NCBI GenBank assembly: GCA_016934825.1
Contig: JAFGSB010000103.1
Span: forward strand, 1-63,598
Length of the DNA stretch: 63,598 bases
Reading direction: 5' to 3'
Origin: Candidatus Zhuqueibacterota bacterium
GTDB lineage: Bacteria; Zhuqueibacterota; Zhuqueibacteria; Residuimicrobiales; Krinioviventaceae
Positions 13,660 through 42,100 of the stretch are shown here, piece after piece (the stretch's first letter is position 1; every line of letters starts with the position of its first letter). The notes under the pieces were generated by a model, which worked only from the letters and a program-made list of their open reading frames with translations, did not search any database and had not been told where the DNA came from. A program made the translations under genes and the position numbers.

Positions 13660-14820
13660 ATGGAATTTGAAAATTCTGATAATATCTTTGCTGAGATAAT
13701 TAAACAAAAAGAAGTAAATAAGATAAAACCTATTACAAACTTATTAAATATTACATTTTTTTTAGGAGCAGGATTCTCAAAATCATGGGAAAATAATTTT
13801 CCAAATAGTGAACAATTATTCTGTTTTGAAAATAAATATCTTCCTATGGATTTTGATTTATTAGATTATTTTGTTATTTCTCAAGGTTATGAAACTGAAA
13901 AAAAAATTAATTTTAAATTATTTAAAGAAATTGTATATAATTTAGTTATTCAAAACAAATATCCAGAATTAAGAACAAGATGTATGGATCAATTTAATGT
14001 TGAATTATTACAAAATGAACTAAAAGGGAAAATTTTACATAACTTTTTTCAATATTTACCTTCTAAATATAGGGAGAATAATAATTTATTACATTTACCT
14101 TCAAACTTATCTAAAAAACAAAAAACAATTATAGATTTTTTTAAAAATCTAAGAGATGATTGGAATTTTCATCCAACATTCCCTGAAAATATTAGATTTC
14201 ATTTCATCTCAACTAACTATGATTGGATAATCGAATTAATAATAAATAAAATCATTGATGATTTAAATCCTTTACATGATTATGTTTATAGGGGTTTTAC
14301 ACCTGCAAAATATAATAATTCTAACTATAATATTATTCACACTACTAGTAGTATTATTAATTTATTTAAACTAAATGGCGGTTTTGAAATTTTTCAAGAA
14401 GGGAATAATTATATTATTGATTATTCATACAGGACAATACATAAAACAAAAGAAAATCCACCTGTATTGGTTCTACCTAATAAGGAACAAAATTATGATG
14501 AACCTTATTTTAGATCAATAATCCCAAAAGCAATAAGACTTCTTCAAGAAAGTAATATATTAGTTTTGATTGGTTATAGTTTACCTGATGAAGATGCAAT
14601 TTTTCGCTTTTTAATTAGACAGTTTGCAGAACATGAAGGAGATCTTGATAAAAAATTATTATTTTATATTGATAAAATGAAAATTGAAAAACAAAAATCA
14701 AAATTAATATCAATCTTCCCATTCTTAAAAAAACATGAAATTGATTCAAGTAATGTATTTTGTTATTCTGGGGATTTTTCTGAATGGGCTAATAATATTA
14801 ATCAAAATTTAAATAAATGA
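13660..14820 (+). CDS. SIR2-like protein, probable antiphage or NAD-targeting effector
   Basis: A 386-residue soluble protein with SIR2/DHS-like Rossmann signatures. FFLGAGFSKSW lies at residues 33-43, STNYD at 184-188, and a distal IGYSLPDEDAIF at about 304-315, as in SIR2_2-type defence proteins. At the point where many family members read KLHG, this protein reads KLNG (237-240). No second enzymatic domain is visible. The DNA is far richer in A+T than both neighbours, with codons dominated by AAT, ATT and TTA, which points to recent transfer. It begins 28 bases after the kinase gene with an AGAAGG ribosome site. NAD cleavage is known for relatives but is inferred here. Confidence 0.75.
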   Translation: MEFENSDNIFAEIIKQKEVNKIKPITNLLNITFFLGAGFSKSWENNFPNSEQLFCFENKYLPMDFDLLDYFVISQGYETEKKINFKLFKEIVYNLVIQNKYPELRTRCMDQFNVELLQNELKGKILHNFFQYLPSKYRENNNLLHLPSNLSKKQKTIIDFFKNLRDDWNFHPTFPENIRFHFISTNYDWIIELIINKIIDDLNPLHDYVYRGFTPAKYNNSNYNIIHTTSSIINLFKLNGGFEIFQEGNNYIIDYSYRTIHKTKENPPVLVLPNKEQNYDEPYFRSIIPKAIRLLQESNILVLIGYSLPDEDAIFRFLIRQFAEHEGDLDKKLLFYIDKMKIEKQKSKLISIFPFLKKHEIDSSNVFCYSGDFSEWANNINQNLNK

Positions 14821-27060: not shown

Positions 27061-27870
27061 TTAGAAACCGGATAATAAATCCAGCATGTTTTCCCGGGTC
27101 AACAGTGTTATTTCTCTTTCATCTTCAAGAAAAGGCCGGACATCGGTAATGACTTTTGACCACTGCAAATCTGATATTTTACGCCGTAACTCTCCACGCC
27201 AGTTCTTCTCCGTTAAAAACAAACCATTCGACTTTTTCTGACTGAGGGCATTGTTTAACAATTCTAAATTAGGTTCCGGCCAGGACCGGTCACTCAGGTA
27301 CCAGATAAGATCATACAGGTCCCTTCCTTTCGTGTATTCCCGGGTCAGGATTGCATTCAGTTTGCCTGCCAGCATCGAGGCCTTGTCATGATGCTGTAAC
27401 TGAACAGGCATATAGCGCCGGACGATCGTTGTTTTCAGAAGACAACCTTGAGGTGGTTTTGTATCGATTTCCAGTTTAATCGACAACTTTTCATTTCTGT
27501 GAGGAGAAAGGCCGCTATCGTACAGTATATTTTCAAACTGTACAAAACTCGAATGAACTGTCTTTTGGGTATTCAATTTTAGAGAAACAGTATACCCCTC
27601 GGATGTCAGTTCATTACGAATACGGCTTAAATATTTTCGTATATCATACCGGGTTTCCTGATGCTCAAGAGTAAAATCAAGGTCTTCGGAAAATCTTGGT
27701 AAATTATAAAGTAATCTTAAAGCTGTTCCGCCATGTAACGCAAGCAGGATCATTGCACCGGCGCGTTGAAGGGCGCTCAGTATTCTGACCTGCAGGTATT
27801 CACGCATTTTGTTTTTGGCCTGAACCGGATTCTTCTCTTCATTGACCAATTGAAAAAGATAATCTTTCAT
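27061..27870 (-). CDS. abiEii: AbiEii/AbiGii-family nucleotidyltransferase toxin
   Basis: A 269-residue toxin of the type IV AbiE system. Members are nucleotidyltransferases that modify tRNA or use GTP and arrest growth, giving abortive phage infection. The motif HGGTALRLLYNLPRFSEDLDF-like (residues 45-65) holds the GG..AL and D-x-D signature of the fold. A later KLEIDTKPP and DLYDLIWYL fit the family. Its ATG overlaps the antitoxin stop by four bases (ATGA), so the pair is translationally coupled. The length is typical. Confidence 0.88.
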   Translation of the reverse strand: MKDYLFQLVNEEKNPVQAKNKMREYLQVRILSALQRAGAMILLALHGGTALRLLYNLPRFSEDLDFTLEHQETRYDIRKYLSRIRNELTSEGYTVSLKLNTQKTVHSSFVQFENILYDSGLSPHRNEKLSIKLEIDTKPPQGCLLKTTIVRRYMPVQLQHHDKASMLAGKLNAILTREYTKGRDLYDLIWYLSDRSWPEPNLELLNNALSQKKSNGLFLTEKNWRGELRRKISDLQWSKVITDVRPFLEDEREITLLTRENMLDLLSGF

Positions 27871-28508
27871 AACGATTCATACTCCTTTTTCTCCTGTTCA
27901 AATAACTTTTTAATTAACCGGCCCGCCTGAGTTAATTTGGATGAATCTGATTTTTCCGTAATCTCCAAAAACTGATCAAGTTGAAATTTATCTGAAAAAT
28001 GTAACCGGAGTTCCTGCAAGTACGCCATTGTATGACTTCCCGGAACCAGGTAAAGCAGATCGAACAGAGCTTTTTCGGGTGATGCAATAAAAAAATGTTG
28101 ATCCGATCCGCTCCCGGTTAAATAATAATAATTAAAGAATTGCATTTTTACATGTTTGTATTCAAACCTCCCCAGGATTGTCTCTTTCATACCGGGCCGT
28201 CCGGTTGTTACACTGGTCACAGCGGCGGTAAATTCAGGAATCATATTATAGTAACTCAATGCGGAATGCAGACTTATATATGATCCGTGTACAAGAAGAT
28301 TTGCTACCCGGAAAGGATGCGGTTCTCTCTTTCGATAAGGGCTGGCCAGAATATACAATCCCCGTCGAAGCTGATTGATCCGGCCCGCTTTTGTCCACCG
28401 GGAGAGCTGCCGTCTGATCTCTTTCGGATTCACATCTCCGGCAAACAGCAGGCTGCTCTCAAACAATTCGTCATTTTCAATAATATGTAATAATTCTGTA
28501 AATTTCAT
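27867..28508 (-). CDS. abiEi: AbiEi-type antitoxin / transcriptional regulator
   Basis: A 213-residue partner of the AbiEii toxin, with an N-terminal winged helix (about residues 1-70: IRRQLSRWTKAGRINQLRRGLYIL) and the C-terminal AbiEi antitoxin domain containing SPEKALFDLLYL. AbiEi proteins usually repress their own operon by binding inverted repeats. The frame extends 13 codons upstream to 28547, but the ATG at 28508 starts the conserved helix. Neither start has a Shine-Dalgarno sequence. The -10 of the visible promoter lies only seven bases before this ATG, so the mRNA may be leaderless. Confidence 0.85.
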   Translation of the reverse strand: MKFTELLHIIENDELFESSLLFAGDVNPKEIRRQLSRWTKAGRINQLRRGLYILASPYRKREPHPFRVANLLVHGSYISLHSALSYYNMIPEFTAAVTSVTTGRPGMKETILGRFEYKHVKMQFFNYYYLTGSGSDQHFFIASPEKALFDLLYLVPGSHTMAYLQELRLHFSDKFQLDQFLEITEKSDSSKLTQAGRLIKKLFEQEKKEYESL

Positions 28509-28544
28509 TGCATTAATATACCAAATAAGGCAACTAAATGCAAT
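28507..28544 (-). promoter_or_regulatory. abiE promoter between inverted repeats
   Basis: The minus strand reads -35 TTGCAT, a 17-base spacer and -10 TATATT (28520-28515). The -35 lies in the right arm (28537-28544, AATGCAAT) of an 8-bp inverted repeat whose left arm (28507-28514, ATTGCATT) covers the transcript start and the ATG. It is a natural site for AbiEi autorepression. Confidence 0.6.
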
Positions 28545-28757
28545 CATTTTTTGTCATTTTTAAATTCAGATTATTAATCCAATCAACATAAAAATGAAAA
28601 TACAAAACTCTGTTCATTTATTCATTATAAATCCTGACTGTTATTCAAATCAGTAAAATATTGAGCCCTGAGTAATTTGTAAAAACCACTGTATATAATG
28701 CGAATTACAAGTGTATTATTATATAGTAAATGAATAAACGAGCTTCAGCCGCGAAAA

Positions 28758-33779: not shown

Positions 33780-34170
33780 ATTGCGGTATTGGCCAACTTT
33801 TCAGCAAAATGTCGGGATAAATTCCATTTTACTAACAAAGTCTGTCGGGCCGCGCCGGCAAGGTCTATCCTTTCGGTTCCGCGGAGGCTCCCGCCTTCGC
33901 GTTGATAAACTGTCTTTTACCCGATATAATCAGGTTCTAAAAGGTGAACTGCACTTGAAACAATTGCAGGACAGGATGTCCTGCCTTATTTTCCGCCCTG
34001 GACAGGGAAGTCCTGTGCGAGCAGTACTTGATCTGTGGATTTTTAGCGGATTGGTTTATATAAAAGAAAAAATTCCTCAAAAATAACCTGTTCAATTCTC
34101 CCTTTAAGGGGAGAATAAAAGAGGGGTGTTTGTTAACAAGGCAACTGGTTTTGATAATTAAGGAGCCAAT
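33780..34170. repeat. Mosaic repeat cluster 1
   Basis: A non-coding patchwork of units that recur elsewhere in the window. 33872-33906 is the GCGGAGGCTCCCGCC unit. 33915-34023 is a roughly 110-base unit repeated at 36973-37083, including the palindromic AGGACAGGATGTCCTG. 34094-34131 is the CTCCCCTT-GAGGGGAGAA type hairpin unit followed by AGAGGGGTGT. The final part (34140-34210) matches 37880-37945. The remaining bases to 34376 are plain A+T-rich sequence. Confidence 0.8.
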
Positions 34171-34376
34171 TCATTATGTTTCTGTAATTTTAAAAATGAC
34201 TTGCGAATGATGACCTTTTTTATTACCATGGGCATAATATTAACCGACAATCCTGACCAACAAAGGTTATAAATATATCATAAAAAGATACATAGTTACT
34301 AATCACAAAATAAATTTGTTCGATTTACAAATCAAATAAAATCAATATTTTTTTGTTGAAACTGATTGAAAACAAT

Positions 34377-35372
34377 ATGAAAAAAAATGTATTTCAGACA
34401 CCTGATTTAATTAATTATTTGACTGCCGCAATGAATCGTGCAGTCTTGTTGTTATCAATAATCAGTTTACTAATTTTTGTATCCGTTAATATTGCTGTTG
34501 GACAAAACAAACCGAAAGTAACATTAAAAGTTGCAACGTGCCAGTTCCCGGTATCAGGAAATATTAAAAGCAATTCATCATATATAAAAAAGTTCATCAA
34601 AGAAGCGGCGCTCAACAAAGCCGATATTGTCCATTTTTCGGAAGCGGCCCTTTGCGGATACCCGCCGAAAGACGTACCTTCATTTGAAAATTTCAATTGG
34701 GACGAATTAAGGGCGGAAACATTCAGTATTATTTCTTTGGCTGAAAAATATAATATCTGGGTTATTTTAGGTTCAGCCCATTATATCAGTGAAAACGAAA
34801 AACCGTTAAACTGTTTGTATATCATTTCAAACGAAGGAAAAATTGTAGACCGTTATGACAAATCAATGTTAACAACCGGTGATTTAAAATATTATACTCC
34901 GGGCGATCACATCGTTACTATTGAATTAAAAGGGTTCAAATTCGGTTTTTTAATTTGTTACGACTCCTGTTTTCCGGAAATGTACAATATTTACAGGCAT
35001 CAACAAGTTCAAATCATGTTCCATTCCTTTTATAACGCACACCACAAAGACAAAACGATTCTGGACGAAATCATTCCAGCGGAAATTCGAGTGAGAGCAT
35101 CGGATAATTTAATGTGGGTCATTGCCAATAATTCAACAGGACATTATTCATCGTGGCCCGCCTGTATCGCGCGGCCGGATGGATCGCTGGAATCTCTTGA
35201 AAGGGAAGTACCGGGAATTCTGTATCGTGAATTCCCGGATGCTAAAATAACTGAAAAATTCCCCAGTTGGACCCACAATAACAAAATGATGAAGTTACCG
35301 GATCTCGAAATATATCATAACGGAATACCTTCCAAACATCCAAGAGCCGTTGACACCAAATCAATGCCTTAG
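34377..35372 (+). CDS. Exported carbon-nitrogen hydrolase (nitrilase superfamily)
   Basis: A 331-residue amidase/nitrilase-fold enzyme. The catalytic triad is visible: Glu in HFSEAALCGYP, Lys in YDKSML, and Cys in LICYDSCFPE. An N-terminal hydrophobic signal (about residues 20-42, ending AVGQ) suggests export. Members hydrolyse amide C-N bonds, and the substrate is unknown. Start choice is uncertain: TTG at 34353, ATG at 34377 or ATG at 34431 (just before the signal core). None has a strong ribosome site. The gene is flanked on both sides by mosaic repeat clusters. Confidence 0.85.
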   Translation: MKKNVFQTPDLINYLTAAMNRAVLLLSIISLLIFVSVNIAVGQNKPKVTLKVATCQFPVSGNIKSNSSYIKKFIKEAALNKADIVHFSEAALCGYPPKDVPSFENFNWDELRAETFSIISLAEKYNIWVILGSAHYISENEKPLNCLYIISNEGKIVDRYDKSMLTTGDLKYYTPGDHIVTIELKGFKFGFLICYDSCFPEMYNIYRHQQVQIMFHSFYNAHHKDKTILDEIIPAEIRVRASDNLMWVIANNSTGHYSSWPACIARPDGSLESLEREVPGILYREFPDAKITEKFPSWTHNNKMMKLPDLEIYHNGIPSKHPRAVDTKSMP

Positions 35373-35700
35373 AGACACACTCAGGTAATACGGGAATCCC
35401 GGCAAAACATAACGGGTTTTCCTTTCGGTTCCGCGGAGGCTCCGGCCACCGCGTTGATGCACGCTGTACGCCGACACCCGCAGGGTCGGGACAGCTTTTG
35501 AGCAGCGGTTCAACCCGAAAAAAAACATCCCCTGTATCCCCCTTCAAAGTGGGACTGGTTTTGGGAGGTTTAGAGGATTTGGTTAACCAAAAAGAAAAAA
35601 TTCCTCAAAAATAACATGTTCAATTCTCCCCTTGAGGGGAGAATAAAAGAGGGGTGTTTTTTAAAGGGTAACCGGTTTTGATAATTAAACCAGTTCGTCC
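35373..35700. repeat. Mosaic repeat cluster 2
   Basis: It contains the GCGGAGGCTCC unit (35423-35458), the CGCAGGGTCGGG/AGCAGCGGTTCAACCCG unit shared with 37355-37400, the CCCCTTCAAAG(G/T)GGGACTGG unit (35526-35565) and the hairpin unit CTCCCCTTGAGGGGAG plus AGAGGGGTGT (35622-35658). Order and spacing follow the 37303-37520 copy closely. It ends against the ribosome site of the DUF998 gene. Confidence 0.8.
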
Positions 35701-35758
35701 TAGAAATTTCAGGTTGTCTGGGGCGAGCAGGCATTTTAATACAAATTTCGAGGGAAAA

Positions 35759-36841
35759 ATGAAACCGATAAAAATTGAACACGATAAAAAAGAATTACAA
35801 GACCGGAAAAATATTAACCGGCAAAAATGGTTGCGGATTGTCTTGCTGGTTATTCTTGGTTACGAGGCGGCGGGTGCGTTATCAGGCGGAATCCTTCTCA
35901 TCGCAGCTCCGGACGGCCGGATCATGGACATGCCGATTGACATCATGCACGGCGTCTTCCGTGATTTCCTGGTCCCCGGTATCATCCTTTTTGGTTTGGG
36001 TATTCTGAACACAGCCGCCTTTGTCGCGGTTATTCGTAAGAGCCGTGCTGACTGGATTATGGCAGGATTAGCTTTGGGCGGGATGATTGTCTGGTTCAGC
36101 GTCGAAATTGCTATTTTACAAGAAATTCACTGGTTGCATATCGTATGGGGCATGCCCGTCTACCTGGGCGGTCTGGTTGCGTTGATACTGTTTTCTTCAC
36201 AATGTGCAGTGACGCAAAAAGCGCTGCTTGTTTGCGGTATACTCTCATCACTGCTTTATGTTGTTTTGAATGTTTTTATTCCAATGTTATGGCCTGCTAA
36301 TAACTGCGCCTCGCAGACTGTAAGCGAGCTTTCGGCGATCGGCGCGCCAACGAGGCCTATATGGCTATGGTTGTGTTTTCTTTACACTTTGCTTATGATT
36401 GTTTTTGCATGGGGTGTTTGGAAATCGGCAGCTAAAAATCACTCACTTCGAATTGCAGGCGCCCTGTTAATTGCCTACGCCGCCCTTGGCGTAATCTGGC
36501 CTTTTGCTCCAATGCATCTTCGTGAAGTACTGGCGGCAGGCGGGGGTACAATCAGTGATAAGATGCACATCGCTTTAGCCGTTGTGACCGAGATCCTCTT
36601 TCTACTTGCCCTGGGTTTTACGGCGGCAGCATTGGGAAAGCGATTCCGCTTCTATTCCATCGCAACTTTCGTTATCCTCCTGTTCTTCGGCGTCCTGACC
36701 TTTTTGGATGCTCCGGGCGTTGGCGCAAATCAGCCTACGCCATTTATCGGAGTTTGGGAACGGATCAACATCGGTGTTTTCTTGCTCTGGATCGTAGTGC
36801 TTGCCATTGTTCTTTTAAGGGCAGATAAAAAATCAGCATAA
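35759..36841 (+). CDS. Multi-pass membrane protein: DUF998 domain fused to a second membrane module
   Basis: A 360-residue integral membrane protein with about ten helices. The N-terminal half (residues 20-150) resembles a stand-alone small membrane protein family (GYEAAGALSGGILLIAAP and DIMHGVF). The C-terminal half matches DUF998, with SQTVSELSAIGAPTRP at about 210-225 and a long run of helices. The role of either module is unknown. The frame is open from 35678 through repeat DNA, but the ATG at 35759 has a GAGGG ribosome site and is preferred. Confidence 0.8.
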   Translation: MKPIKIEHDKKELQDRKNINRQKWLRIVLLVILGYEAAGALSGGILLIAAPDGRIMDMPIDIMHGVFRDFLVPGIILFGLGILNTAAFVAVIRKSRADWIMAGLALGGMIVWFSVEIAILQEIHWLHIVWGMPVYLGGLVALILFSSQCAVTQKALLVCGILSSLLYVVLNVFIPMLWPANNCASQTVSELSAIGAPTRPIWLWLCFLYTLLMIVFAWGVWKSAAKNHSLRIAGALLIAYAALGVIWPFAPMHLREVLAAGGGTISDKMHIALAVVTEILFLLALGFTAAALGKRFRFYSIATFVILLFFGVLTFLDAPGVGANQPTPFIGVWERINIGVFLLWIVVLAIVLLRADKKSA

Positions 36842-36863
36842 TAAATGGCAATACACCTAACTT

Positions 36864-36908
36864 GCCCTGGATCGTAGATCCGCCTCAGGCGGAAATTTTT
36901 TCCAGGGC
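36864..36908 (+). terminator. Nested stem-loop after DUF998 gene
   Basis: The outer 8-bp stem GCCCTGGA/TCCAGGGC encloses an inner TCCGCCT/AGGCGGA hairpin followed by a T run (36896-36901). It lies 23 bases after the stop and could terminate the transcript. The outer stem sequence also occurs in the neighbouring repeats (CCGCCCTGGACAGGG), so it may be a repeat unit itself. Confidence 0.5.
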
Positions 36909-36972
36909 GGACAAAAATCCGGGGTATCTGCCACGATTAATCCTGTTAGCTGCACAGTGCGGATTTTTGTTT

Positions 36973-37945
36973 TTTTACCCGATATAATCAGGTTCTAAAA
37001 GGTGAACCGCACTTGAAACGGCTGTGCAGGACAGGATGTCCCGCCTTATTTTCCGCCATGACAGGAAAGTCCGGTTCGAGCGGAAGCAACGAAAAAAACG
37101 GGCGTTGGGTAGTCCCGTATCGCCAGGCGGTACGGGACGCACCGGGACTTTTTTCATAGGCAAAAAATCCGGTTCCGCGGAGGCGCCCGCCTCCGCGTTG
37201 ATATGTGCGGTACGACAATAACCGCAGGAGCAGGAGCTCCTGCGGAATTATTTAGGGGGTTTTGATAAAAAACAAACCGGTTTTGTTATTTAACCTGCCA
37301 ATTCAGTTCCGCGAAGGCTCCCGCCTTCGCGTTGATGCGCGCAGTACGTCAATCCCCGCGGGGTCGGGATGGCTTTTAAGCAGCGGTTCAACCCGGAAAA
37401 GACATCCCCCTGTTTCCCCCTTCAAAGGGGGACTGGTTTTGGGATCTTGAGGGGATTTGGTTCACCAAAAAGAAAAAATTCCTCAAAAAGAACATGTTCA
37501 ATTCTCCCCTTGAGGGGACTTGTAGGTCGGGCGTGTCGCCCGACAATTATTATTCATCCATTCAAATCTTTCAAATTTACTATTATTAACCGGCTACTCC
37601 ACAGCCAAGTCTCCCCTTGAGGGGAGAATCAAAGAGGGGTGTCCGTTTTTTCAGCAAAAGGTCGACCGGTTGTTCCGGCCACCCGGTCGTCGAGTAACGA
37701 GTCCCGTACTCCCGCTTTTCAGGAGACCGGGACGAGTGTATCGAGACGCCCTTCGGTACGCTAATATTCGCATTTCAGTTTCGCGAAAGCTCCCGCCTTC
37801 GCGTTGATACATGCAATACGACAATAACCGCAGGAGCAGGAGCTCCTGCGGAACTATTTAGGGGTGTTTGACAAAAAGCAAACCGGTTTTGATAATTATA
37901 CAGCCAATTTATTATTTTTCCGTAATTTTAAAAAAGACTTGCGAG
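36973..37945. repeat. Mosaic repeat cluster 3 (largest)
   Basis: Almost 1 kb of recurring units with no credible gene. It holds the 110-base unit (36973-37083, copy of 33915-34023) and three GCGGAGGC/GCGAAGGC units (37169-37202, 37303-37336, 37775-37808). It also has two copies of ACGACAATAACCGCAGGAGC plus GCTCCTGCGG hairpin (37210-37249, 37817-37855), the CTTCAAAGGGGGACTGG unit (37404-37443), and two CTCCCCTTGAGGGG hairpins (37500-37518, 37608-37642). Short open frames here are repeat artefacts. Confidence 0.85.
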
Positions 37946-38242
37946 TTATGAATAAATTTCTTACAATTTAGTAGCAACAGGAGAACGGGGCCCGCCACAG
38001 TTTTACACGATATTGATGATAGAAGGCGCAATAAAGTTATGGGATGGATAGCTGTATTGGGTATTTTGGGGGTTTATTAAATATCAGATAATGATTATGG
38101 ACCAGGCTCTCTGAATTCTGCATAATGGAAGCAATTTACTACGAACAAAAGGAATTTTCTAAATTAGAATTATAATAATGCGTTTTCAAGCTAATTATGC
38201 TATAAAAAATTATATTGGGGGTTAAAACTTAGTGAGGTTAAT
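37946..38242. other. Leader region of the SIR2/P-loop gene
   Basis: A+T-rich sequence between the repeat cluster and the SIR2 gene. One stretch (37975-38080) has a short open frame ending in a hydrophobic GWIAVLGILGVY and may be a gene remnant, but it has no start signal. A GAGGT ribosome site lies just before 38243. Confidence 0.4.
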
Positions 38243-40672
38243 ATGGAAATAGAAGAAGCAATAAAGTTAGCACTTGGAGGAGATTCTATCTTATTTGTAG
38301 GAGCTGGATATTCTTCAGAAGCCTTGAATATTAAAAAAAATAATCTTAAAAATTCTTTACAATTAAGTGAACATTTTGCAAAATTAGCAGGTATTTCAGA
38401 ATCTTTAACATTGGAAGATGCCGCTGAAATTTACCTCGAAAAATACGGTATAGATGAATTAATTAGGGAAATCAAAAATGAATTTACAATATTTAATGTT
38501 CAGCAGTATCATAATGATATAGCATGTATACCTTGGAAAAGAATTTATACAACAAACTATGATAATGTTATGGAAAAATCATACAACAATGTTGGAAAAA
38601 AAATTACTCCAATTACTATTAAAAATGATATAAGTAAAGAACCAAAAAATTTTCCAATGTGTATTCATTTGAATGGATACGTTGAAAGCCTCAATCGTGA
38701 TAGTCTGTTTTCAGAATTAAAACTAACTGAATCAAGTTATATTACCGCATCGTTAATAAATTCTCCGTGGGCCACACTATTCCGTCAAGATATAAGATTA
38801 GCACGTTCAATTTTCTTCATTGGTTATTCTGGTTATGATTTGGATATAAAAAGAATTCTTGCTCAATCAGAAATGATTAAGAGGAAGACATTCTTCTTTG
38901 TTGGGCTTGATTCAAGTCCTACAATTACTAGAAGGTGTAAACTATTTGGAGATGTTTTTAAAGAAACAGCATCTCAATTTACAAAAAAAGTTAATAGTAT
39001 TAAAAAGGAATATAAACCACCTGTTGATAGTGAGTTTTCCCCTCTTTCTTTAAAAGAGTACAAACCTATTCAATTGATGAAAAAAATAACAGATCGTGAT
39101 TTTATTGATTTACTAATGTTTGGAAAGCGTAAAGAAGATTTAATTTATGAATCTTTGTCTACTGAAAAAAAATATTATCTGGAACGAACTAAAATAAATG
39201 ATGTTTTTCAATATATTGAAAAAGATTTTAAAATAATTGTCATTTGTTCAGATTTAGGTAACGGAAAAAGCTTATTTCTTGATGGAATGCGGTTGCGTGC
39301 ACTTGAAAAAGGATTTCGTGTTTTCGAACCATTAGAGCAGAATGATCTTGTTTATTCAGAAATAGAAAAAATTACCAGTATGGATATGCCTATATTTTTA
39401 ACTATTGAAAACTATCAAAACTGGTTTGATGAAATTCTATTATATTTAAATAACTGTAATAGTGAGTCAGTTTTAATTCTTACAGCAAGAAATGCTATAA
39501 ACGATGTTTTTATTGACGAATTGACTAATAAAGCGAATATTGATTTCATTCCTGAAATACAAATTGATACTCTTGATGAGAAAGAAATAAATTGGTTTCT
39601 TGCTACACTTGATGAATATGGTTTATGGGGTGAAGATGCTGGTAAAAGTATGTCTCAAAAACAAAATTTACTGGTAGATAAATATAAAGGGCAAATACAT
39701 GCAATTCTTTTAAGTTTATTAGATTCGCCTGACATTTCATCAAGATTGAAAACTCTCACGGATAATTTAAAAGATGATGGTGATCTTTTCAAGGTCACAA
39801 TAAGTTTATTTATATTAACAATTTTAAATTTTAGAACAACACTTGATGATTTAGCAGATTTATGGGATTCTGAAATAATAAATAATGGTCATTTTCGAAG
39901 GAATCAAACAATAAATGAATTAATTGAATTTTCAACAAGCAATCTTTCAATAAGGTCTCCAATTTTAGCTGAATATTTCCTTCGGCATTTAACTGATTCG
40001 GGCTATATTATTAACACATTGATAACTATGGCAGAAAGAGTAGATCGTGCTGCTAAATATTCTAAAAAATATAGATCTCTTTTCCCGGATCTTATAAGAT
40101 TTCATAGTTTACAATTAATTTTACCAATTGAGGGAAAAAAAGCTGCTGTAATAAAATATTATGAATCAATTAAAAATTTATATGGATGCAAGGATCATCC
40201 CTTGTTTTGGCTTCAATATGCAATTGCTTCATTAGTTATTGATGATCTTTTCCGTGCAAAAAAATATTTCGATACTGCTTATTCTTTAGCCGAAAAAAAG
40301 GATTGGGATACATATCAAATTGACAATCATTTTGCTAGATTTTTACTTGTTGAATCAATCAAACTACCCCCAGAAAAATGTATGGATAATTTTAGATCGG
40401 CACGAAGAATTATTAATCGTCAAATTAGAAAAGAACGCAGACATTATCCTTACAGGATTGCGATTGGCTACCAAGATTTTATAGATAAATTTGGAATTTC
40501 TTTGAAAACTGATGAACTTAAAGAAGTAAAGTTTGCTGCCAGAGATGTACTTCAAAGAATTCAAGAACTACCAGACAATCGGAGAACACATAGATATGTT
40601 AAAAAATGTTTTGAAATTATGACTTATGTAATTGAGAAGACAGACGCAATCATTGCAAAAAATGATGAATAA
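38243..40672 (+). CDS. SIR2-like plus P-loop NTPase protein, probable antiphage defence
   Basis: An 809-residue protein in the style of SIR2-STAND/Avs5- or DSR-like defence proteins. The N-terminal SIR2 fold shows FVGAGYS (18-24), TTNYD (103-107), HLNG (142-145) and FIGYSGYDLDI (192-202). A P-loop NTPase follows, with Walker A DLGNGKS (337-343) and a likely Walker B hydrophobic strand ending TIENY near 390. The last 400 residues are helical, perhaps TPR-like, and would sense the trigger. The gene is A+T-rich against its surroundings and sits right after a mosaic repeat cluster. NAD depletion on phage sensing is known for relatives and inferred here. No partner gene is adjacent. Confidence 0.8.
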   Translation: MEIEEAIKLALGGDSILFVGAGYSSEALNIKKNNLKNSLQLSEHFAKLAGISESLTLEDAAEIYLEKYGIDELIREIKNEFTIFNVQQYHNDIACIPWKRIYTTNYDNVMEKSYNNVGKKITPITIKNDISKEPKNFPMCIHLNGYVESLNRDSLFSELKLTESSYITASLINSPWATLFRQDIRLARSIFFIGYSGYDLDIKRILAQSEMIKRKTFFFVGLDSSPTITRRCKLFGDVFKETASQFTKKVNSIKKEYKPPVDSEFSPLSLKEYKPIQLMKKITDRDFIDLLMFGKRKEDLIYESLSTEKKYYLERTKINDVFQYIEKDFKIIVICSDLGNGKSLFLDGMRLRALEKGFRVFEPLEQNDLVYSEIEKITSMDMPIFLTIENYQNWFDEILLYLNNCNSESVLILTARNAINDVFIDELTNKANIDFIPEIQIDTLDEKEINWFLATLDEYGLWGEDAGKSMSQKQNLLVDKYKGQIHAILLSLLDSPDISSRLKTLTDNLKDDGDLFKVTISLFILTILNFRTTLDDLADLWDSEIINNGHFRRNQTINELIEFSTSNLSIRSPILAEYFLRHLTDSGYIINTLITMAERVDRAAKYSKKYRSLFPDLIRFHSLQLILPIEGKKAAVIKYYESIKNLYGCKDHPLFWLQYAIASLVIDDLFRAKKYFDTAYSLAEKKDWDTYQIDNHFARFLLVESIKLPPEKCMDNFRSARRIINRQIRKERRHYPYRIAIGYQDFIDKFGISLKTDELKEVKFAARDVLQRIQELPDNRRTHRYVKKCFEIMTYVIEKTDAIIAKNDE

Positions 40673-40930
40673 AACAAAAATTGCATAACAAATAAATTTA
40701 AAAGACACGAGAACAATTTTTAAAACAATTTACATCTAATGCGCCGTCTGAAACATATTTTAGTTGTATGATTGGACTTGTCCAACTAAAATTGTATATA
40801 TATAATTGTAAAATTCTGTACACCTGAATTTCTCAAGGAGCGTGAAAAACAAACCTGGGTTTCCAAACCTGTAATTTTGGAGCAGAATCTGGTACATTCA
40901 AGATATAAAACAAAAAAGTTAAAAATTCCA

Positions 40931-41851: not shown

Positions 41852-42100
41852 ATGAAAGACGAGCAGCTTTTGAAACGTATAACAATTGATCATAAAATAA
41901 TGGTTGGAAAGCCAATCATCAGAGGAACACGATTAACCGTAGAGTATATACTGAACCTGTTAGCGCATGGATCTACGTATACAGAAATAATTGAAGAATA
42001 TAAAGATCTAACCATACATGATATTCAGGCATGTATTTTATTTGCAACAAAAAATCTGGAAAGCACCGCATTTATGCCATTATCCGTCGAGGTTGCCTGA
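41852..42100 (+). CDS. DUF433 antitoxin-like protein
   Basis: An 82-residue DUF433 protein, a winged-helix-like fold usually acting as antitoxin beside a DUF5615 PIN-like toxin. The motif HKIMVGKPIIRGTRLTVEYIL (residues 15-35) is diagnostic, and the rest (HGSTYTEIIEEYKDLT) matches the family. A good GGGGAAT ribosome site precedes it. No PIN/DUF5615 gene is found on either side, so it appears to be an orphan. Confidence 0.85.
   Translation: MKDEQLLKRITIDHKIMVGKPIIRGTRLTVEYILNLLAHGSTYTEIIEEYKDLTIHDIQACILFATKNLESTAFMPLSVEVA

Follow-up and report, generated by a model that had tools for sequence, protein, structure and literature searches.

The 63,598-nucleotide stretch of contig JAFGSB010000103.1 analysed in this study (the window), from a Candidatus Zhuqueibacterota bacterium, carries a gene that very probably serves in single-protein antiphage defence and belongs to the Avs5 (AVAST type 5) family, EfAvs5 type. 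The closest full-length solved structure to the encoded 809-residue protein is, by both sequence and fold, that of EfAvs5, and the protein is therefore assigned as an Avs5 homologue of this type. The assignment draws directly on the architecture of the protein, on its full-length kinship with EfAvs5 in sequence and fold, on its intact active-site and nucleotide-binding motifs and on the patchy distribution of the gene. The family already has a solved structure and published biology and is not a new system. An earlier interpretation of the same DNA, made from the letters alone (the sequence-only reading), had compared the gene product to SIR2-STAND and DSR-type defence proteins; the SIR2-STAND plan is borne out by EfAvs5 (SIR2-STAND) being the nearest full-length structure, whereas membership of the DSR type is not, as sequence similarity to DSR2 is confined to the SIR2 domain.

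Overall architecture and kinship with EfAvs5

The gene is a single intact open reading frame with an ATG start (Table 1), and its product has every testable architectural feature of Avs5: an N-terminal SIR2-like effector domain (PF13289), a central STAND P-loop NTPase with a Walker A motif, a C-terminal helical repeat sensor (residues 478–809 alone lead to PDB entries 9jap and 9nc9) and homology over the full length to EfAvs5, an Avs5 that has been tested by experiment. In Pfam, SIR2_2 (PF13289) is matched at residues 100–209 with an E value of 5e-15, above the gathering score, and nSTAND_NTPase5 at residues 318–416 with an E value of 4e-4, below the gathering score; among the family members scanned (n = 57), 54 match nSTAND5 and 29 match nSTAND3. 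The order of SIR2-like fold, Walker A motif and helical C-terminus given in the sequence-only reading agrees with PF13289, with SDLGNGKS at residues 336–343 and with the helices of the AlphaFold2 model. The check that it had proposed, whether an NAD-binding pocket and an NTPase fold would be predicted, was run, and both a SIR2 fold with NAD motifs and an NTPase fold are present.

Table 1. Features of the avs5-like gene and its product, with positions in the window
Feature	Position	Strand	Basis
GAGG, likely ribosome-binding site	38234..38237	+	Sequence, 5 nt before ATG
avs5-like gene (EfAvs5 type), single gene, 809 aa	38243..40672	+	Full-length match to PDB 9jap
SIR2-like NADase domain (predicted), residues 1–258	38243..39016	+	PF13289, E 5e-15; fold match
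Asn105 of TTNYD, expected catalytic residue, 80/80	38555..38557	+	Counterpart of PaAvs5-1 N110 (PMC12931631)
H142-L-N144-G145, NG replacing sirtuin HG	38666..38677	+	Counts over 80 sequences; KomC alignment
STAND-type P-loop NTPase (NOD) core, residues 301–445	39143..39577	+	nSTAND_NTPase5 match
Walker A SDLGNGKS, residues 336–343	39248..39271	+	G341 and K342 invariant, 80/80
Walker B-like FLTIE, E389 (D or E in 78/80)	39395..39409	+	Counterpart of PaAvs5-1 IIFIE
Arg416 of LTAR, 77/80	39488..39490	+	Likely counterpart of PaAvs5-1 R438
Helical and winged-helix-like arm region, residues 446–585	39578..39997	+	Boundary inferred from model
C-terminal TPR-like helical sensor (predicted), residues 586–809	39998..40669	+	Model of residues 478–809; fold of 9jap
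Sensor motif PLFWLQYAIA, residues 653–662; W656 80/80, Q658 79/80	40199..40228	+	Conservation over 80 sequences

A phmmer search of the PDB returned 9jap, entitled "Helical structure of EfAvs5(SIR2-STAND)", over residues 8–751 with an E value of 3.4e-84, far above the next matches, which were limited to the SIR2 domain of KomC, and a profile of 57 relatives matched 9jap with 820 bits over residues 3–809. The protein also aligns end to end with WP_206343558.1, a protein of an E. coli conjugative plasmid whose sequence is near-identical to that of 9jap across 849 residues. EfAvs5 and the 809-residue protein share their length class, domain order, the folds of their parts, the HxNG active site and the Walker A motif SDLGNGKS, whereas their identity is only about 27% and they lie on different branches of the family tree.

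The AlphaFold2 model, computed with 80 aligned sequences, has a mean pLDDT of 92.1 for the whole protein, and 9jap is the structure that it matches best (Z 30.5, 779 residues aligned), followed by the AVAST5 filament 9nc9. The overall rmsd between the whole model and 9jap is large, at 24 Å, which we read as the arrangement of the domains probably differing between the monomer model and the solved filament. The SIR2 domain matches the SIR2 domains of KomC, ThsA and DSR2 in fold, with Z of 20–22.6 and an rmsd of about 3 Å.

The PADLOC Avs5 model PDLC02170, which is a detection model and not a defining trait, did not match the 809-residue protein. It matches only five of the 57 family members, and weakly, and gives no match on the plasmid that encodes the near-identical copy of EfAvs5, so that its failure here may say more about the model, which seems to cover only part of the Avs5 family. 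When the same model was used to look for further Avs5 clades in 391 genomes, one weak, partial match was obtained. A search of NCBIfam with the protein did not find a family for it.

Active-site and nucleotide-binding motifs

The SIR2 motifs of the protein are GAGYS, TTNYD and GYSGYD. Across 80 sequences, which were gathered with EfAvs5-like seeds so that the ratios describe this branch and not all Avs5, N105, D107, G145, D199, G341 and K342 are invariant. In PaAvs5-1, immunity was lost when N110, D112, N153, G362, K363 or E410 was replaced by alanine, and was lost in part with R438A (PMC12931631). Judged by the order of the motifs, the first six of these residues would correspond to N105, D107, N144, G341, K342 and E389 of the present protein, and R438 probably to R416; all seven pairings rest on motif order and not on an alignment with PaAvs5.

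The sirtuin HG motif is occupied by NG in 70 of the 80 sequences, by HG in nine and by YG in one, so that position 144 is Asn or His in 79/80, and a parsimony count on the tree gives two changes. KomC aligns without gaps across the HxNG stretch, with KomC H146 opposite N144. In about half of the Avs5 homologues, NG has been reported at the site of the sirtuin HG, a motif supposed to be invariant, and in PaAvs5-1 NG is functional, with Asn performing better than His (PMC12931631). The histidine two residues before NG, H142, is kept in 78/80 sequences. With Asn at the HG position in 70 of the 80 and H142 retained in nearly all, H142 could take over the role of the histidine, and EfAvs5-type proteins may thus have moved the sirtuin catalytic histidine, with H142 taking its part in NAD+ cleavage. 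We regard this as an unlikely, tentative proposal: H142 is also kept in eight of the nine HG members, which argues against a simple replacement of a lost histidine, and H142 may simply be structural.

C-terminal sensor

Modelled alone, residues 478–809 reached a pLDDT of 96.0, and the C-terminal half is nearly all helical. The first structural match of this segment is again 9jap (Z 23.0, 327 of 332 residues, 3.6 Å), then 9nc9 (Z 16.3) and, after these, SAMD9 and TPR proteins. The sequence-only reading had seen no named repeat in the sensor half; in keeping with this, no Pfam repeat model fires on it, but its fold is that of the EfAvs5 sensor and is TPR-like. A new trigger for the protein, as that reading had suggested, is possible but not supported by these results. 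Calcineurin matches at residues 604–658 were set aside as chance, being weak except for one and absent from the profile search.

The linker and the final 109 residues have the lowest mean pairwise identity (0.17–0.18) and the SIR2 domain the highest (0.32), and the low C-terminal conservation fits, though modestly, a diversifying sensor. The conservation of W656 and Q658 across eleven phyla is unusual for a part that is thought to diversify.

Distribution of relatives

Full-length matches were found in none of the 81 other genomes of the phylum, leaving the source genome alone among 82, and the sole other match in these genomes was to part of a SIR2 domain. The gene is thus not a core gene of the phylum; core status was what the sequence-only reading had named as counting against a defence role. 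From a single scan of genome contigs, 80 of the 122 relatives obtained were retained. A further 12 relatives are on virus-classed contigs, and matches are present in 97 plasmid records, some of them conjugative; a search of phage records with the protein gave no match. The relatives are scattered over eleven phyla. Absence from the rest of the phylum, together with scattered relatives, plasmids and virus-classed contigs, is as expected of a mobile defence gene.

In the tree, the protein forms a pair with a Bacteroidales protein to which it is 47% identical, and the pair is nested in a set of seven rows that has full support and includes members of Bacteroidota, Myxococcota, Verrucomicrobiota, Chloroflexota, Acidobacteriota and Thermodesulfobacteriota. 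Many relatives in this set are metagenome bins, which makes single placements uncertain, and the mixture of phyla as a whole fits horizontal transfer. An uncontrolled tally of defence-family matches beside the relatives contains R-M, BREX BrxP, GajB, Dpd, AbiE, SIR2-HerA and Mokosh. An obligate operon partner was considered and rejected, with only 15 same-strand neighbours at less than 80 nt around 85 relatives; most relatives appear to be single genes.

Genomic context

The G+C content of the avs5-like gene is 28–29%, against 43–50% in its flanks. The nearest open reading frames with a family match are DUF998 upstream (ending at 36841) and Fib_succ_major downstream (starting at 40877), so that the gene stands alone, with no plausible operon partner among its neighbours. 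Both the A+T-richness and the solitary position had been pointed out in the sequence-only reading, which did not mention a second A+T-rich SIR2 gene in the window, at 13660–14820 on the plus strand (386 aa, about 27% G+C). The product of this second gene is a SIR2_2 protein of a different build (Pfam E 1.7e-7; PADLOC SIR2 E 1.5e-10) with the motifs GAGFS, STNYD, LNGG (also NG, not HG) and GYSLPDED; it is present only in its own genome, one of the 82 of the phylum, and a sequence search gave no solved homologue. Fib_succ_major is followed by a DUF433 (antitoxin-like) protein at 41852–42100 (plus strand) and then by a TIM-barrel isomerase-like protein, which leaves DUF433 without a following toxin partner. 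An AbiEi/AbiEii toxin–antitoxin pair lies at 27061–28547 on the minus strand, about 10 kb from the avs5-like gene (PADLOC E values 1.7e-49 and 3.8e-67). In an empty-site comparison with one congener, the flanking genes were without clear full-length orthologues there, and an insertion boundary could therefore not be drawn.

Upstream of the gene, a repeat mosaic at 33868–37967 holds nine families of direct repeats within 33.9–38.0 kb, with intergenic copies of 32–217 nt, for which no Rfam match was found. The last copies lie near 37967, about 275 bp before the start of the gene, close to the distance of about 300 bases noted earlier. A link between the cluster and the gene was rejected: a 747-base piece of the cluster has 46 matches across many contigs of the same genome, and copies also lie beside genes other than this one, at 34 and 35.4 kb. 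The cluster is therefore not tied to the avs5-like gene, and its position is incidental.

Comparison with known systems and alternative explanations

PaAvs5 and other AVAST5 proteins (PMC12931631; PDB 9nc9) share the SIR2 effector, the STAND NTPase and the helical repeat sensor, and PaAvs5-1 also shares the NG motif and a Walker B motif with a single acidic residue; however, 9nc9 has only 11–16% identity to the 809-residue protein in structure alignments, and PaAvs5 has been described with nSTAND3, whereas the EfAvs5-type family matches nSTAND5 more often. Thoeris ThsA (SIR2 and SLOG) has a SIR2-like NADase domain as well, but the ThsA model matches residues 16–210 only, the rest of the protein being NTPase and TPR-like helices; membership of ThsA was rejected, as sequence similarity stops at the SIR2 domain. 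The distant overall likeness to human SAMD9, which extends over about 650 residues (Z 16) and has likewise been reported for PaAvs5, is to an animal antiviral protein with 12% identity.

The build of a SIR2-like NADase domain joined to a helical body is also that of DSR2, and a DSR1/DSR2-type defence sirtuin, with a long helical body and without an NTPase switch, would account for the SIR2 domain, which matches that of DSR2 with a profile E value of 1.6e-15 and Z of about 21. This explanation is highly improbable, as homology to DSR2 is absent beyond residues 4–233 of the profile match, a conserved Walker A motif and NTPase core are present and the Dsr models do not match the protein at E values up to 10. 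The substitution in the sirtuin HG motif could also mark an inactive remnant, N144 being aligned with the histidine that is changed in the H146N mutant structure of KomC. We give this idea almost no weight, since NG is the majority form in the family and works in PaAvs5-1, and the gene has an unbroken reading frame and retains the other motifs. A STAND protein with the same parts that is not triggered by phage, and acts instead in regulation, plasmid exclusion or mobile-element conflict, would suit the relatives on plasmids and virus-classed contigs, and tests so far extend to only a few Avs5 proteins; as broad protection against phages is reported for EfAvs5, the closest tested relative (PMC12931631), such a role is considered very unlikely.

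Proposed mechanism

As an antiphage protein of the EfAvs5 type, the 809-residue protein would, by extension from its relatives, depend on nucleotide, form filaments, hydrolyse NAD+ and defend against phage. In the most likely mechanism, the resting protein would be held closed by the NTPase module and the C-terminal TPR-like domain. A phage component would bind the C-terminal domain, the nucleotide-bound NTPase module would then rearrange and dimers would stack into a helical filament, after which the SIR2 domains would hydrolyse NAD+, yielding nicotinamide and ADP-ribose, and phage growth would be halted at a cost to the cell. Avs5 is known to assemble into filaments of homodimers, with filament formation an apparent prerequisite for activity (PMC12700824), and both NAD+ loss on infection and dependence on the Walker motifs have been reported for Avs5, for which JADA is a known activator (PMC12931631). 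The host of the present gene belongs to an uncultured lineage.

Conclusions

In conclusion, the analysis extends Avs5 with divergent homologues whose bacterial hosts lie far outside the Proteobacteria that have been tested. The results suggest that the 2023 PADLOC Avs5 model misses the EfAvs5 branch, and surveys that rely on this model may therefore undercount Avs5. With the HxNG pattern, a non-canonical sirtuin active site becomes open to direct testing, and the divergent homologues help to separate the parts of Avs5 that are fixed, namely the active site, the Walker A motif and the Trp-x-Gln of the sensor, from those that may set phage specificity.
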